Positions 3,657-61,237 of a DNA stretch of 64,000 bases are shown here, piece by piece. Position 1 is the first letter of the stretch. Every line of letters starts with the position of its first letter. The translations under genes and the position numbers were made by a program. The stretch spans positions 14,007 through 78,006 of the forward strand of contig NZ_SSOJ01000160.1 of assembly GCF_029871205.1 (NCBI RefSeq), written 5' to 3'. The notes under the pieces were generated by a model, which was not told where the DNA came from, searched no databases, and saw nothing but the letters and a program-made list of their open reading frames with translations. Origin of the DNA: Pseudomonas sp. BN417. Lineage in GTDB: Bacteria > Pseudomonadota > Gammaproteobacteria > Pseudomonadales > Pseudomonadaceae.

Positions 3657-4004
3657 GACCAGATTCCTCCGTGGTGTGCAAGGTGAAGCGAAGGCAGTGG
3701 GCTTCATCAAACCCGCCGATTCACGCCTGGCCCAATCCACGCATTGGCCGAGTTGTGGGCTGTGTGAGGACGGGGCCATGGCGAACCCGCTCACGAGGCT
3801 ATGCGGGCGATGGCACGGTGTCATGGTCCGAAGCGACTAGTTGCTTAACGTGCGGTACCGTTTGACTCGACATCGGATCGACCCGTCGCTTGGCGGGGTT
3901 GGGTAGAGACAAATGGCGATCAAGGCACAGCTGATGGCTGCAGCCGGGCAGCCTTCTGGGGTAACCTTCCGCATCCGAATTGACCGAACCTGGTAATGCG
4001 TACG
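3657..4004. other. Divergent intergenic region, SDR / proQ-like
   Basis: About 350 bases with the 5' ends of the minus-strand SDR and the plus-strand ProQ-like gene. It must hold both promoters, but I see no clear -35/-10 pair, operator or repeat. Open frames crossing it have no recognisable content. Confidence 0.5.
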
Positions 4005-14563: not shown

Positions 14564-14592
14564 GTGGCTGCGTTGGAAGGGAAGGCTTTTCC

Positions 14593-21604: not shown

Positions 21605-21627
21605 CCGACTGCAGGCAGCTCGCTTCT

Positions 21628-21725
21628 TGTGGGGGCGATTTCAATCGCTAAGGGGCGCGCAGCGGCCCCCTTTGACCTTGCAGGCCGAACCTTCGGTCCG
21701 GTTAGCGAATGAATTCGCCCCCACA
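21628..21725. repeat. 97-bp palindromic repeat, copy 2
   Basis: TGTGGGGGCGATTTCAATCG at the left and GCGAATGAATTCGCCCCCAC at the right, with inner GGCCGAACCTTCGGTCCGG hairpin. Same family as copy 1 in opposite arm orientation. Confidence 0.9.
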
Positions 21726-26457: not shown

Positions 26458-26489
26458 TTCGGTCGGGCAGGGCAACTGCCGGCTTTACC

Positions 26490-26588
26490 TGTGGGGGCGA
26501 ATTCATTCGCTAAGGGGCGCGAAGCGGCCCCCTTGAGGTGTCGAAGGCCGAACCTTCGGTCCGGTTGGCGAATGAATTCGCCCCCACA
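26490..26588. repeat. 97-bp palindromic repeat, copy 3
   Basis: TGTGGGGGCGAATTCATTCG at the left and GCGAATGAATTCGCCCCCAC at the right, with the inner GGCCGAACCTTCGGTCCGG hairpin. It lies between convergent azoR and the ABC-F gene. Confidence 0.92.
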
Positions 26589-31578: not shown

Positions 31579-31595
31579 GCAGAGACCGCTTTCCT

Positions 31596-31693
31596 TGTGG
31601 GGGCGATTTCAATCGCTAAGGGCAGCGAAGCTGCCCCCAGGAAGGCCCAAGGCCGAACCTTCGGTCCGGTTAGCGAATGAATTCGCCCCCACA
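31596..31693. repeat. 97-bp palindromic repeat, copy 5
   Basis: TGTGGGGGCGATTTCAATCG at the left and GCGAATGAATTCGCCCCCAC at the right, with inner GGCCGAACCTTCGGTCCGG. It lies between the convergent DJ-1 and aacS genes. Confidence 0.92.
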
Positions 31694-37871: not shown

Positions 37872-39311
37872 ATGACCACAATACTTCTCGAAAGCCGATC
37901 GGCACTTCACGAAAGCCGCTCAGCACGCTTTGCCATGCGTTGCTCGAACTGGGCGGAACGCTGGTTCCCCGACTCCTGGGTCTTCGCCGCAGTCGCCGTG
38001 CTGCTGGTGACGATCGCCGCCCTGGCCATGGGGGCACCGGCCAGCCAGGCCGCCAAGGCCTTTGGCGATGGTTTCTGGAGCCTGATTCCCTTCACCATGC
38101 AGATGGCCTTCGTCGTCATCGGCGGCTATGTGGTCGCCAGCTCCGGCCCGGCCTCGCGGCTGATCGACCTGCTGGCCCGCGTACCGAAGAATGGCCGCTC
38201 GGCGGTGTGCTGGGTGGCGCTGATCTCCATGGTGGCCTCGCTGCTGAACTGGGGCCTCAGCCTGGTGTTCGGCGGCCTGCTGGTGCGCGCCCTGGCTCGC
38301 CGTGAAGAGCTGAAGATGGACTACCGCGCCGCCGGTGCCGCCGCCTACCTGGGCCTGGGCGCCGTCTGGGCCCTGGGCCTGTCGTCCTCGGCGGCGCAAC
38401 TGCAGGCCAACCCGGCCAGCCTGCCGCCGTCGATCCTCGCCATCACCGGCGTGATCCCCTTCACCGAGACCATCTTCCTCTGGCAGTCGGGTGTGATGTT
38501 GCTGGCGCTGATGGTGGTGTCCCTGGTGATCGCCTACATGACCGCCCCCAGCGCAGCCAGCGCGCGTGACGCCAAGTCGTGCGGCGTGGACCCGAGCTTC
38601 ACCGCGCCGCCGCAGGTCAAGCCGACCCGTCCGGGCGAGTGGCTGGAGCACAGCCCGCTGCTGATCATCCTGCTGGTGGTGCTGGCCGGTGGCTGGCTGG
38701 CCCAGGAGTTCGCCAGCAAGCCGGCGATCACCGCCATTTCCGGGCTGAATACCTACAACCTGCTGTTCATCATGGCCGGTGCGCTGCTGCACTGGCGTCC
38801 GCGCAGCTTCCTCGACGCCGTGGCCCGTGCGGTGCCGACCACCACCGGGGTGCTGATCCAGTTTCCGCTCTACGGCTCCATCGCCGCCATCATGACCACG
38901 GTGAAAGGCGTGGACGGCTCGACCCTGGCGCACCACATCTCCACCTTCTTCGTGCAGATCGCCAACCACGACACCTATGCGCTGCTGATGGGCGTGTATT
39001 CGGCCGTGCTGGGCTTCTTCATCCCGTCCGGCGGTGGCAAGTGGATCATCGAGGCGCCCTACGTGATGCAGGTGGCCAACGAGCTGAACTACCACCTGGG
39101 CTGGTCGGTACAGATCTACAACGCCGCCGAGGCGCTGCCGAACCTGATCAACCCCTTCTACATGCTGCCGCTGCTGGGCGTGCTGGGCCTGAAGGCGCGC
39201 GACCTGATCGGCTTCTCCTTCGTCCAGCTGCTGGTGCACATACCGCTGGTAATGGTGCTGCTGTGGGCGTTGGGCACGACGCTGGCGTATGTTCCGCCGG
39301 TCATGCCTTGA
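37872..39311 (+). CDS. atoE: Short-chain fatty acid transporter
   Basis: A 479-residue inner-membrane permease of the AtoE/TIGR00366 family, with about 12 hydrophobic segments, e.g. SWVFAAVAVLLVTIAALAMG, MQMAFVVIGGYVVASSG, WVALISMVASLLNWGLSLVF and the C-terminal LPLLGVLGLKARDLIGFSF. It is expected to import acetoacetate, butyrate and similar acids for DhcAB/AtoB, matching PA2002. GAGGTAACCC precedes the ATG. Its last codons and stop (ATGCCTTGA) lie inside a 32-bp sequence that is repeated exactly 2.06 kb downstream. Confidence 0.93.
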   Translation: MTTILLESRSALHESRSARFAMRCSNWAERWFPDSWVFAAVAVLLVTIAALAMGAPASQAAKAFGDGFWSLIPFTMQMAFVVIGGYVVASSGPASRLIDLLARVPKNGRSAVCWVALISMVASLLNWGLSLVFGGLLVRALARREELKMDYRAAGAAAYLGLGAVWALGLSSSAAQLQANPASLPPSILAITGVIPFTETIFLWQSGVMLLALMVVSLVIAYMTAPSAASARDAKSCGVDPSFTAPPQVKPTRPGEWLEHSPLLIILLVVLAGGWLAQEFASKPAITAISGLNTYNLLFIMAGALLHWRPRSFLDAVARAVPTTTGVLIQFPLYGSIAAIMTTVKGVDGSTLAHHISTFFVQIANHDTYALLMGVYSAVLGFFIPSGGGKWIIEAPYVMQVANELNYHLGWSVQIYNAAEALPNLINPFYMLPLLGVLGLKARDLIGFSFVQLLVHIPLVMVLLWALGTTLAYVPPVMP

Positions 39312-39324
39312 GGGTAGGGCGGGC
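39293..39324. repeat. 32-bp direct repeat, left copy
   Basis: TCCGCCGGTCATGCCTTGAG through GGCGGGC, covering the atoE 3' end. Identical to 41357-41388. The two copies bound the segment with the broken ABC exporter gene. Confidence 0.95.
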
Positions 39325-39340
39325 TTCCCTCTCCCCCCGG

Positions 39341-39366
39341 CCCCTCTCCCGCAAGCGGGAGAGGGG
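39341..39366. repeat. CCCTCTCCC/GGGAGAGGG repeat, copy 2
   Basis: CCCCTCTCCCGC-AA-GCGGGAGAGGGG, a perfect 12-base-arm hairpin, preceded by CCCTCTCCCCCCGG. It lies just inside the left 32-bp repeat. Confidence 0.85.
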
Positions 39367-39417
39367 AGTTTATCCGTGCCGCCTGCCAGACTTGCGAGGA
39401 CTGTCAGGCGCGCGTCA

Positions 39418-39441
39418 CCCCTCTCCCTTCAGGGAGAGGGG
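39418..39441. repeat. CCCTCTCCC/GGGAGAGGG repeat, copy 3
   Basis: CCCCTCTCCC-TTCA-GGGAGAGGGG followed by CAGGGGGAGAGGGG. It lies 43 bases before the exporter pseudogene's stop codon and may serve as its terminator. Confidence 0.85.
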
Positions 39442-39484
39442 CAGGGGGAGAGGGGCTTCGAGGCAGGGCTCAGCAATCGGCCGT

Positions 39485-41149
39485 TCAAGTCAGGGCTATG
39501 GCTTGCGAACCAAGATCAATCACCTCGTCCGCCATGGCCCTGGACGCGTCTCGATGAGTAATCAGGATCAAGGTGTTGATCCTGGACTTCAGGAACCCAA
39601 GAACCCTTGCTTCCGTTTCGCCATCCAGTGCAGAGGTAGGCTCGTCCAGGATCATCACGTCTTTCTTGCGCAGCGCGGCCCTTGCAATGGCGATTCGCTG
39701 ACGCTCTCCCCCCGACAGAGAGCGATTCTCGCCACCCGCGATCAGCTCCAGGCGGCTGTAATCATCCTCGCAGCCGAAATCGAGTCCCAAGGCATCAAGA
39801 GCAAGCGTCAATTCGTCATCGCCCAACTGATCTTCGGTGCCATAGAGCAGGTTCTCGCGAACGGTTCCTGAAAAGATGAACGGGTTCTGCGAGACGACGC
39901 TGACCCGATCCATGATGGTTTTCGGCGAGAGCCTGGAAACGTCCGTCCCCATGAACCTGATCGTCCCTTCATATTCGCGATTCAAGCCGAGCAGGACGTT
40001 GACCAGCGTCGTCTTGCCGCTGCCGGTAGGGCCTCGGACGGCATAGGTCTTGCCATTTTCGATCCTGAAGCTCAGCGGTTCTCCTTTGTTCGTTCTGTAC
40101 GAACGGACTTCGAACAAGACGCTTCCATCTCGAACTTCGTCCTTGTCGGCATCCGTCTCCGCGAGGTCGAAGTACTTCAAGCCTGCCTCGAGGGCCAGGT
40201 ATTCGCGTTTCAGGCCAACCAGGGAACTGGCGACAATCGCGAACGGCGTTGTCAGCTGGACGATATAGGAGGCCACCATGACAAAGTCACCAACCCCGAA
40301 ACTCCCATAGATCGCCATATACGACGAGGCCAGGGTGAAACAAAGCAGGACAAGGCCGATCGCGATGACCTAGGTGCCCAGCAGGATCGCCGTCCTGGCG
40401 TTTGCCTTGAAAACGGCGGTGGCATGCTGGTTGATGATGGGCTCGAGCTTCCGCGATTCCTTCGCTTTCGACAGGTTGATGCTGATTTCGTGGTTGGCGT
40501 CCAGCTTCTCTACCAGAAAAGCGGAAAGCTGGTTCGTGGCTTCAAAAGTTTTCCGGTAGACGTCCCGTGTTTGCTGAGATACCCAGAGCGCGACACAGAA
40601 CAAGGCCATCATGGCGATAAGAAACAGCGTCGAGAAAACGATGCTGGTCGCTTTCCAGAGGACCAGGAACACGAAGGCAAACTCGAACAGCATCGGCGTA
40701 AGCGTCCAGAACAGCGTGTCGTTGATCTGGCCGAAGCTGCTCATCGATCTGTCGAAGTCAGATAGGACTTCGCCTTTCGAAAGGCTTTGTTGCCTGTGCA
40801 GCGGGATGCTGAGCAGGCAGTCGAACAGGGATCTGTAAAAGGCTGTGTCGCATCGCACCATCACACGGGATGTAGCGATGTGCTTGATCCACTGCATCGC
40901 GTTACAGAAAGTCCAGGAACATGCATAGGCGGCCACGAAGGTGAATACCGTGGCAGCTTCTGCATCGGAGCTGCTGAGGAGGTCGGCGGCTTCACGTAGG
41001 AAGAGTGGAACCAATGCACTGAAGAGGGAAAGCAGCAGCGTGGAGATGAAAACCAGGAAGAAGTCCCTTGGGAAGCTGAGGTACTCCGATCCTATGATTT
41101 TCAGTGCCTTGGCATAGGGGACCGCAAAATCCTCGAACAACGTCTTCAT
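39485..41149 (-). pseudogene. ABC exporter (TMD-NBD) interrupted by an in-frame amber codon
   Basis: Two frames on the minus strand, 41149-40370 and 40369-39485, are in the same phase and separated only by TAG at 40370-40372 (LLGT-stop-VIAIGLVLL). Read through, they give a 554-position half-size exporter: six hydrophobic segments in the first part (DFFLVFISTLLLSLFSALVP; VVFLVLWKATSIVFSTLFLI-like) and an intact ATPase in the second (Walker A GPTGSGKTT, signature LSGGERQR, Walker B DVMILDEPTSALD, H-loop ITHR). The look is that of Atm1-like or peptide exporters. Base composition is visibly poorer in GC than neighbours, a sign of transfer. ATG 41149 chosen as start; its ribosome site is weak. One base change would restore the gene, so loss is recent, or the codon is suppressed. 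Confidence 0.88.
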
Positions 41150-41305
41150 CTGATTCACCGTCCCGGGTCCAAAGGATGAAAACAGGCATCGTCGGCCGAG
41201 TTTCAAGAATCGCCGGCAATCTGCGAGGGGGGGCAGAGCCGGGAGAGTGTCTGGGAGGGCTGGGTCGATTTGAAGGGGGTGTCCGTTGTTTCGGATCGGT
41301 CAGGG

Positions 41306-41324
41306 TGAAGACTTCATGTCTTCA
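41306..41324. promoter_or_regulatory. Inverted repeat upstream of the exporter gene
   Basis: TGAAGAC-TTCAT-GTCTTCA, 7-base perfect arms, 157 bases upstream of the exporter start. It is a likely operator or leader hairpin and belongs to the inserted segment. Confidence 0.5.
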
Positions 41325-41356
41325 GAGTATCGGAGGGAGGTATTCTGACGGCGTGG

Positions 41357-41388
41357 TCCGCCGGTCATGCCTTGAGGGTAGGGCGGGC
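41357..41388. repeat. 32-bp direct repeat, right copy
   Basis: Identical to 39293-39324, so it contains a second copy of the last codons and stop of atoE with no gene in front of it. It marks the right border of the exporter segment; the native sequence towards liuE resumes after it. Confidence 0.95.
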
Positions 41389-41401
41389 CTGGTAAGCGAT
41401 C

Positions 41402-41489
41402 GTAGGTTGGGCTGAGCTCCGCGAAGCCCAACGCATCGACCTCGACTGGAACACCGCCGTTGGGCCGCGCTGCGCTTGGCCCAACCTAC
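41402..41489. repeat. GTAGG...CCTAC intergenic repeat, copy f
   Basis: GTAGGTTGGGCTGAGCTCCG at the left and TTGGCCCAACCTAC at the right. Followed by AAAAAGGCCGCGCTCC-ATG-GGAGCGC (about 41491-41515), a hairpin with an A-run that, read on the minus strand, can terminate the liu operon. Confidence 0.8.
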
Positions 41490-41541
41490 AAAAAGGCCGC
41501 GCTCCATGGGAGCGCTGCCATAGGAGAAACGCTTGGCCGAA

Positions 41542-42447
41542 TCAACCTTGCTTCGCCAATATCGCCCGCGCCACCCTTGAGCCATTCTCCTTACCCAGCA
41601 CTGCGCAGATGCGCTGGCCGGCGTCCACCAACCTGCCCATGTCGATCCCGGTTTCGATGCCCAAGCCGTTGAGCAGGTAGAGCACGTCTTCGGTGGCCAC
41701 GTTGCCAGTGGCGCCCTTGGCGTAGGGGCAGCCGCCGAGGCCGGCGACCGAGCTGTCGAACACGGCGATACCCTCCAGCAGGCTGGCGTGGATGTTCGCC
41801 ACCGCCTGGCCGAAGGTGTCGTGGAAGTGGCCGGCAAGGCGGTCGCGCGGGACGCGGGTGCCGACCACGTTGATCAGGTGGCGGGTGGCGCCGGCGGTGC
41901 CGGTGCCGATGGTGTCGCCCAGGGACACTTCGTAGCAGCCCATGGCGTAGAGTTCGGCGGCGACGGCGGCGACTTGCTCGGCGGGAACATCGCCCTCGTA
42001 GGGGCAGCCCAGTACGCAGGACACATAGCCGCGCACGCTGATGCCAGCGGCCTTGGCCGCGTCCATCACCGGAACGAAGCGCGCCAGGCTCTCGGCGATG
42101 GAGCAGTTGATGTTCTTCTGCGAGAAGGATTCGGAGGCGGCGGCGAATACCGCCACTTCCTTCACCCCGGCTTCCAGGGCGGCCTCGAAGCCTTTCAGGT
42201 TCGGCGCCAGGGCGGCGTAGGTGACGCCGGCCTTGCGCTGGATCTGCGCGAAGACCTCGGCGGAGCCGGCCATCTGCGGCACCCACTTGGGCGAGACGAA
42301 GCTGCCCACCTCGATATAGCCGAGGCCGGCGGCGGTCAGGTCGTCCACCAGGCGTACCTTGTCGGCGATGCTGATGGGCTGTTTCTCGTTCTGCAGGCCA
42401 TCGCGGGGGCCGACTTCGACAAGGCGGACCTTGCTGGGAATAGTCAT
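41542..42447 (-). CDS. liuE: Hydroxymethylglutaryl-CoA lyase
   Basis: A 301-residue TIM-barrel lyase that splits HMG-CoA to acetyl-CoA and acetoacetate, the last step of leucine and acyclic-terpenoid breakdown. Markers: VEVGPRDGLQNEK with the metal-ligand Asp and the catalytic Arg, HFHDTFGQAVANIHAS with the two His ligands, and the catalytic cysteine in GLGGCPYAKGATGN. It is the last gene of the liuABCDE operon, 239 bases after liuD with two dispersed repeats between. Its product acetoacetate is what the dhc/ato/aacS genes next door consume. Confidence 0.95.
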   Translation of the reverse strand: MTIPSKVRLVEVGPRDGLQNEKQPISIADKVRLVDDLTAAGLGYIEVGSFVSPKWVPQMAGSAEVFAQIQRKAGVTYAALAPNLKGFEAALEAGVKEVAVFAAASESFSQKNINCSIAESLARFVPVMDAAKAAGISVRGYVSCVLGCPYEGDVPAEQVAAVAAELYAMGCYEVSLGDTIGTGTAGATRHLINVVGTRVPRDRLAGHFHDTFGQAVANIHASLLEGIAVFDSSVAGLGGCPYAKGATGNVATEDVLYLLNGLGIETGIDMGRLVDAGQRICAVLGKENGSRVARAILAKQG

Positions 42448-51039: not shown

Positions 51040-51137
51040 TGTGGGGGCGAATTCATTCGCTAAGCAGACCGCAGGTCTGCCCTGCAATGCCCAAGGGGGC
51101 TGCGTTGCAGCCCATAGCGAATGAATTCGCCCCCACA
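51040..51137. repeat. 97-bp palindromic repeat, copy 6
   Basis: TGTGGGGGCGAATTCATTCG at the left and GCGAATGAATTCGCCCCCAC at the right, inner region GCAGACCGCAGGTCTGCC. It fills most of the gap between the sigma-54 activator gene and the exporter gene. Confidence 0.92.
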
Positions 51138-60486: not shown

Positions 60487-60632
60487 GTAGGTTCAGGGAT
60501 GAGCGCGACGATGAGCAGGAAGACCTTGCGGACCGCAGCCACTTCAGCCTCGGTATAGGGCTTGTAGTCGTCCGGCATGCTCTTGGGTTGCACGGCCAAT
60601 CGTTGGGCTTCGCTTCGCTCTGCCCAACCTAC
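60487..60632. repeat. GTAGG...CCTAC intergenic repeat, copy j, carrying a duplicated cytochrome c fragment
   Basis: GTAGGTTCAGGGATGAGCGC at the left and TCTGCCCAACCTAC at the right. Bases 60512-60585 are a 74-base copy, with one mismatch, of 60796-60869 inside the cytochrome c gene (same orientation). The copy gives residues MPDDYKPYTEAEVAAVRKV on the minus strand, out of any gene. Confidence 0.9.
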
Positions 60633-60709: not shown

Positions 60710-61237
60710 TCAGTAGTGGTCGCCGATGCCGTCGTCGATCTCGATGCCTTGTTCGCGCATCTGCTTGATCAGGCCCGCGCGGGTGTCCGGCAGGTTGAGC
60801 AGGGAGACCTTGCGGACCGCAGCCACTTCAGCCTCGGTATAGGGCTTGTAGTCGTCCGGCATGCTCTTGCCGGCCATGCCGTCCTTGCGCATCAGCCAGT
60901 TGAGCAGGTCGGCCAGTTGGGCGTTGTTCAGCGCCGACTGGGACATGCCCGGCACCCGAACGAGGAACTCGCGGCCGCCTTCTACCTTGAGGAAGTTGCC
61001 GACGAAGTCCTTCATCTTCGGAGTGTCGTTGGCCTTTGAGCCGCTGCCGTCGCCCAGGTGGCAGCCGGCGCATTGCAGCTGGTAGTTCACTGGGGTGCTG
61101 TAGCCGGCCCGGGCGATGGGCTTCTGCAGCTCCTCATTGCCCGGTGCATGCTTCTGGCCAGGGTCCGGGATGGCGCGGGCCAGGGCCAGGGGGGCGGCCA
61201 TGGCGCACATCAGTCCGGCGATCAACAGGTAACGCAT
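60710..61237 (-). CDS. Monohaem cytochrome c of the aromatic amine dehydrogenase cluster
   Basis: A 175-residue periplasmic protein. Signal peptide to about residue 21 (CAMAAPLALA). One haem site, C56-AGC-H60, and a probable axial Met at 98 (VPGMSQ). The C-terminal part DLLNWLMRKDGM is typical of small class I cytochromes. It lies directly after aauA, in the place where methylamine clusters carry amicyanin (mauC). In the Alcaligenes faecalis aau cluster the corresponding gene (orf-2) also encodes a small cytochrome c, so this protein is the likely electron acceptor or relay of the dehydrogenase. GGAGG before the start. Confidence 0.88.
   Translation of the reverse strand: MRYLLIAGLMCAMAAPLALARAIPDPGQKHAPGNEELQKPIARAGYSTPVNYQLQCAGCHLGDGSGSKANDTPKMKDFVGNFLKVEGGREFLVRVPGMSQSALNNAQLADLLNWLMRKDGMAGKSMPDDYKPYTEAEVAAVRKVSLLNLPDTRAGLIKQMREQGIEIDDGIGDHY

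Follow-up and report, generated by a model that had tools for sequence, protein, structure and literature searches.

What process could give a gene a second, exact copy of its own 3' end 2 kb from the first? The question is raised by a locus of Pseudomonas sp. BN417, studied here in a stretch of 64,000 nucleotides (nt) that we call the window (NCBI RefSeq assembly GCF_029871205.1, contig NZ_SSOJ01000160.1, positions 14,007 to 78,006). The window is G000:C154:14007-78006 in our numbering, where G000 is the source genome, a 6.56-Mb draft in 166 contigs. In it, the fatty acid transporter gene atoE and the lyase gene liuE are separated by a segment that carries an ATP-binding cassette (ABC) exporter gene and is flanked by two identical 32-nt sequences. 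An earlier note, made from the letters of the window, took the segment for the footprint of an insertion or of a recombination-mediated acquisition. Our results favour, with moderate confidence, a different history: the segment would be the decayed remnant of a lasso-peptide cluster once established in the atoE-liuE interval of this genus, and an exporter-bearing and an exporter-less allele would have been fused at the duplicated atoE tail.

The two 32-mers lie on the plus strand at 39293-39324 and 41357-41388 and match each other exactly. Each consists of the final 16 nt of the atoE coding sequence, the stop codon TGA and 13 nt past the stop. The left copy is the native end of atoE, a short-chain fatty acid transporter gene (37872-39311, plus strand; PF02667, E 1.3e-85) whose orthologues in 15 other genomes of the genus are 93–98% identical in amino acid sequence. 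The right copy is a second atoE 3' end with the joint at its left edge, where TCCGC is common to atoE and the sequence upstream of the exporter in a relative, G007. An exact 32-mer shared by two 500-nt flanks is expected by chance about 1.6e-13 times. With up to 3 mismatches allowed, the 6.56-Mb genome holds two copies, both at this locus, which rules out a dispersed element, and the exact 32-mer is found in none of 17 stretches from relatives. Thus the perfect repeat described in the earlier note, whose right copy repeats the last codons and the stop of atoE, is real, and the further features listed there were also recovered: the atoE open reading frame (ORF) is complete with its stop, the GC content of the enclosed DNA is lower (0.569 vs 0.65 in the window), the dyad GAAGAC-N5-GTCTTC is present at 41307-41323 upstream of the exporter, and no recombinase-like frame was seen when the ORFs of the segment were inspected by eye. 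The two CCCTCTCCC repeats of the segment form an inverted pair of a dispersed repeat at 39327-39454.

The relatives tell the two borders apart. A close atoE is present in 16 of the 18 genomes of the genus, G000 counted, and liuE follows it within the stretch examined in 14 of these 16, the exceptions being G002 and G004. Among the 14, an exporter gene is found in G000 and G005 and a remnant in G008; the other 11 have exporter-less gaps of 107–510 nt, which agrees with the earlier note, for which presence of the segment in all relatives would have counted against its reading. In G007, which lacks a close atoE, a frameshifted exporter (76% identity) stands between a thiolase gene and liuE. Four species thus have an exporter, or what remains of one, in the interval next to liuE. 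As a side observation, G007 has an exact 17-nt repeat on both sides of its exporter (positions 3833 and 5809 of locus L050, 3742-5853 on G007:C1), which is part of a repetitive extragenic palindrome (REP). A sensitive search of 12 gaps (the 11 exporter-less ones and that of G008) gave a significant exporter match in G008 only (34 nt, 94%, E 4e-10), and a wider alignment extends it to 59 nt, corresponding to the last 17–20 codons of the exporter. To the left of it G000 and G008 have the same order: atoE, 15–16 nt, TTCCCTC and a repeat pair, and the first part of this context is also present in the exporter-less G009. The repeat pair is the one at 39327-39454, here REP1, an inverted pair of the dispersed CCCCTCTCCC palindrome; it occupies the equivalent position in G008 and, in part, in G009. 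The segment gave 69 matches in the genome: the segment itself, its own inverted self-match and 67 others, all of them within 39317-39467. By identity of atoE and of liuE alike, G008 is the closest genome to G000, and the two group in the tree of these genes, where the G000/G008/G004/G011 group has a support of 100, no value is printed for the G000/G008 pair and many other branches are weak (17–81). Because G008 keeps the left flank, REP1 and the 3' end of the exporter at this place, we conclude that the left border is old, ancestral to G000 and G008, and that the segment did not arrive between two newly made 32-bp copies.

It is the right joint (41356/41357) alone that looks new. Upstream of the exporter, G000 and G007 remain homologous as far as GGTCCGC, within the beginning of the right 32-mer, and past this point G000 has the atoE tail, 13 nt, the repeat pair REP2 (inverted GTAGGTTGGGCTGAG repeats, 41402-41489) and liuE (41542-42447, minus strand; hydroxymethylglutaryl-CoA lyase family, PF00682, E 3e-55, with orthologues in relatives). 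In the exporter-less G006, G012 and G013, a repeat of the REP2 type stands close behind the atoE stop and liuE comes next. Since these three genomes have the atoE end, a REP2-type repeat and liuE in this order, the block to the right of the joint looks like an exporter-less allele. The earlier note had suggested a search for an empty site, and in none of the 12 gaps of relatives that were compared does the exact 32-mer run into the right flank. Recombination-mediated acquisition, the second of its proposals, or an allele fusion suits the right joint best, while the idea that the two 32-mers are the ends of one insertion does not agree with the old left border.

What, then, is the gene between the two tails? 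It lies at 39485-41149 on the minus strand, and its frame is open save for one in-frame TAG (40372-40370), codon 260 counted from the ATG at 41149. The earlier note correctly recognised an exporter gene but overlooked this stop, so the gene is present and is not intact. Its halves match PF00664 (ABC_membrane) and PF00005 (ABC_tran), the only Pfam families above their cut-offs, and this make-up of a transmembrane and an ATPase domain fits a type IV ABC exporter without a peptidase domain. Strong homologues are found in three of the 18 genus genomes, namely G000 itself, G007 and G005 (53% identity); the remaining matches are weak (21–24% identity). The window exporter is also 48–50% identical to the D protein of G182, a member of another genus of the family, and the D genes of both G005 and G182 stand beside the lasso gene B2. 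In a tree of nine sequences, two of them on long branches, G000 and G007 pair (support 100/99) and are joined by G005 (95/97) and then by G182 (81/93). On this evidence we assign the gene, as a pseudogene, to the group of lasso-peptide exporters (McjD-like, D protein). General resources were less informative. The best 60 of 582 matches to solved structures were eukaryotic-type exporters, e.g. ABCB1 and ABCB6, and provided no link to McjD; a search of NCBIfam yielded no lasso-exporter model, and the best 25 exporter matches there are general ABC transporter families, all below their cut-offs. A scan of named genomes with the exporter alignment returned 4 distant loci only. When 293 genomes of the order and 369 of the class, drawn evenly and with few candidates scored in each, were searched, nothing but G000 itself reached E 1e-70.

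The same interval of G005 helps to understand where such a gene may come from. There the exporter has the orientation seen in G000 and is preceded by B2 (NF033537, 64 bits vs a cut-off of 33), a cyclase gene and a precursor-like ORF of 43 amino acids. The cyclase gene is asparagine-synthetase-like (PF00733), with matches to the lasso-cyclase model below the cut-off. The 43-residue ORF has Thr at −2, a core beginning with Gly and Glu at core position 9, a pattern that we take to be the rule for lasso precursors. We read this as a complete lasso-peptide cluster in the atoE-liuE interval. The cluster (L049, 2510-6550 on G005:C1) has a low GC content, 0.43 vs 0.69 in its flanks, and its predicted core of 20 residues follows a Thr(−2)-Lys site. 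G182 likewise has the order A-C-B-D and a precursor frame with Thr −2, Gly 1 and Glu 9, but elsewhere in its genome. A lasso cluster of Pseudomonas has been described previously: pseudomonassin (pdnABCD) of Pseudomonas sp. SST3 (PMC10609385). On plasmids, tblastn with the G005 exporter found 34 records, 25 of them from Escherichia and all below 60% identity. Gene context was read for 2 of the 34: an E. coli exporter (27.5%) is annotated beside a cyclase-like gene and a lasso B2 gene, and a Salmonella plasmid (NZ_CP022118.1, L090, 3965-5539) has a lone lasso-type exporter between two IS3-family transposase genes. An asparagine-synthase-related gene lies about 3.6 kb from the latter exporter.

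Exporters without such company are not limited to BN417. Seven of 398 family genomes have the exporter at E 1e-60 or better, and a whole-genome search for B2 found it in three of them (G005, G182 and G315). In G000, G007, G229 and G044 no B2 was found, although several of these are drafts and a diverged B2 could escape; the same search found none in G008. Remnants of B or C genes upstream of the exporter were considered and rejected, as the matches beside the G000 exporter are no better than E 0.6; the best in the window has E 0.09. Besides the G000 gene with its stop, the exporters of G007 and G044 are broken, with matches split across two frames. G229 and G044 show lone lasso-type exporters in another genus, the first intact as a single frame of 583 codons (L079, 8055-9803) and the second frameshifted (L081, 8194-9809). 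The region upstream of the exporter in the window (41150-41356, minus strand, including the dyad) aligns with that of G007. Because about 200 nt of alignable upstream sequence are common to both, the lone arrangement is probably older than the split between the G000 and G007 exporters. The ratio of nonsynonymous to synonymous substitution rates (dN/dS) between these two exporters is 0.20 in the first 400 codons and 0.26 in the last 143, compared with 0.18 for liuE and 0.31 for thiolase. The low ratios, the common upstream region and a B2 search that found nothing in either genome suggest that the exporter probably once worked as a stand-alone gene, perhaps in self-protection (immunity) or in peptide efflux. 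The dyad was also considered as a shared operator of a regulon and rejected, as the exact pattern occurs in 2 of the 18 genus genomes and the match in G010 has no exporter or liuE match nearby.

Taken together, these observations are consistent with the following course of events. A lasso-peptide cluster would have settled in the atoE-liuE interval in this genus. After loss of the partner genes the exporter would have been kept for a time as a stand-alone gene for self-protection or peptide efflux. Its decay would have come later, and is seen today as the stop in G000, the frameshift in G007 and the near-complete deletion in G008. One event would have fused the exporter-bearing allele (atoE-REP1-exporter) to an exporter-less one (atoE-REP2-liuE). 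At one end the incoming DNA would have paired with atoE by homology, and at the other it would have been joined illegitimately at the 5-bp TCCGC. The TCCGC match is deduced from the G007 sequence, which here stands in for that of the donor. Such an event would not damage atoE, and the tail that belonged to the recipient's atoE would become the right-hand copy. The exporter-less allele predicted from this is atoE-32mer-CTGGTAAGC-REP2-liuE.

Several observations weigh against this history. The predicted exporter-less REP2 allele has not been seen in this species, for which no strain lacking the exporter was available, and the fusion is reconstructed from one genome. Both 32-mers have the same 13 noncoding nt, yet these already differ in G008; therefore, the two alleles must stem from strains that are very closely related, unless the tail was copied inside a single genome. 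Sliding identity along atoE and liuE gives no clear recombination breakpoint. When G000 and G007 are compared, the exporter has a pS of 0.47, whereas liuE has 0.29 and thiolase 0.21; this synonymous divergence, higher by factors of 1.6 and 2.3, suggests less codon bias in the exporter or exporter alleles that have themselves moved between lineages. The stand-alone reading also gains nothing from a promoter search, in which 39280-41560 showed no sigma-70-like promoter. A self-immunity role of the orphan exporter is suggested only by analogy with microcin J25. Finally, with a GC content of 0.43 and no more than 53% identity between the exporters, the G005 cluster may have arrived independently at the same place.

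Other explanations of the duplicated tail have to be compared with the allele fusion. The REP repeats offer one of them: the atoE 3' end and REP2 could have been duplicated together as a unit of a bacterial interspersed mosaic element (BIME), and the exporter stretch could later have come between atoE and one such unit. Tails are indeed multiplied in this place in G006 (L063, 5520-6029 on G006:C1), where the own tail of atoE (3' end and stop) is followed by three more copies at a spacing of 131–132 bp, each with a REP2 pair; since G006 has no exporter, atoE tails get duplicated here without any exporter. The right 32-mer of G000 lies 13 nt from REP2. For BIMEs, capture of the 3' ends of genes for REP-associated tyrosine transposases (RAYT), together with the spacer to the REP, is reported in four cases by Nunvar et al. 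2010 (PMC2817692), who also list a near-identical REP, GTAGGTTGGGCTGAGCTTGCGAAGCCCAAC, from Coxiella. But the alternating REPs with repeated segments between them that are present in G006 come down in G000 to a single tail-REP2 unit, the left tail runs into REP1 and not REP2, and the stretch from stop to REP2, stop included, is 29 nt in G000 vs about 10 nt in G006. Five loci of RAYT type (Y1_Tnp) are present in G000 (L091–L095 on C27, C146, C152, C131 and C75); one has the REP2 core, and within the 2.1–3.3 kb examined none has an exact REP1 core, for which reason a RAYT source of REP1 was rejected. It is possible that Y1_Tnp loci drive the REP families. We regard tail capture by REPs as unlikely, though less so than the alternatives that follow.

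A break repaired near the upstream end of the exporter could also have made the copy, if TCCGC paired with the atoE tail and 27–32 nt were copied before rejoining. The 5-bp match at the joint and a short exact copy with its source 2 kb away agree with such templated insertion, but it leaves unexplained that next to the copied tail stand REP2 and liuE, an arrangement much like that of the exporter-less relatives, and we consider it improbable. Even less probable is an insertion as in the earlier note, by which a mobile element or cassette would have duplicated 32 bp of its target. Two exact copies around a lower-GC segment and an intact atoE are what such an insertion would produce; nevertheless, the left border is common to G008 and in part to the exporter-less G009, no second tail accompanies the exporter remnant of G008, which is a contradiction unless that remnant was acquired separately, and a recombinase frame and dispersed 32-mers are both missing. 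With the left border old, this explanation was rejected as the principal one. Error of assembly or sequencing, the in-frame TAG included, seems very improbable. The assembly is a draft in 166 contigs and there is only one stop, but the order atoE-exporter-liuE is backed by G005 and the G008 remnant, the order exporter-liuE by G007, and decay of the homologue is seen as well in G007, where it is broken, and in G008, where little of it is left.

Known systems resemble the BN417 locus in part. In lasso clusters of the A-C-B-D type, such as that of microcin J25 with McjD, an exporter with ABC_membrane and ABC_tran domains belongs to the set, and the window gene is related to exporters that stand beside B2 and a cyclase gene; in the window, however, the exporter is alone and broken, and precursor, B2 and cyclase were not found. 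McjD is described as the dedicated exporter of microcin J25, a system for which self-immunity is mentioned, and a second E. coli exporter, YojI, may also secrete this peptide (PMC8277102). In type VI loci of Vibrio cholerae, orphan immunity genes arise by effector displacement, and a process akin to homology-facilitated illegitimate recombination has been proposed (PMC5361080). There too a protective gene outlives its producer module; the system is a different one, and the window gene is decayed and its immunity role putative. PMC3240628 describes one-sided events under the name of homology-facilitated illegitimate recombination, and work on this process in P. stutzeri is cited within PMC5361080. 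One homologous border, one illegitimate joint and an intact core gene would be the common features; in G000 the right joint has the TCCGC match and the left border is continuous with relatives. The difference is that the G000 event is deduced from a single genome, and that no recipient allele was found. The REP/BIME and RAYT systems (PMC2817692) share with this locus the palindromic pairs of dispersed repeats, REP1 and REP2, and the gene 3' ends captured between REPs in G006, but the tail copy of G000 stands at the exporter joint, outside any REP array. Lasso clusters in Pseudomonas are already known, and in our literature searches on lasso exporters and orphan immunity, which covered titles and abstract openings of the papers listed, no account of orphan lasso exporters as a class came up. 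We find the pattern of exporters without clusters moderately interesting.

A few other features of the window should be mentioned. A terminator-like hairpin lies downstream of liuE (41499-41515, minus strand); with 3 such sites in the region vs 2.3 expected, it is weak when taken alone. Positions 60521-60585 and 60805-60869 form an exact 65-nt direct repeat with starts 284 bp apart. Another dispersed repeat, GCGAATGAATTCGCCCCCACA, has copies from near 14591, at 21626-21705, 26488-26571, 30837, 31594-31675, 51040-51120 and 56782; one pair (21682 and 31650) is exact over 44 nt.

Based on the allele-fusion reading, what appears to be a small mobile segment would become a piece of history: a peptide-antibiotic cluster arrives, its producer genes are lost, and the exporter, for a time preserved by purifying selection, finally decays. 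Where a gene end carries perfect direct repeats, these may stem from the joining of two alleles or from REP arrays that copy tails, and do not require an insertion. More tentatively, and as a possibility rather than an expectation, lasso exporters may persist in the family, presumably Pseudomonadaceae, as stand-alone protection genes without their peptides, and the atoE-liuE junction may at the same time serve as a site of exchange, at which recombination in the core genes on either side moves cluster and orphan alleles from one species to another and leaves duplicated gene tails at illegitimate joints. If it is true that orphan lasso exporters protect, their presence in a genome would be a simple sign that lasso peptides had been encountered in the past.

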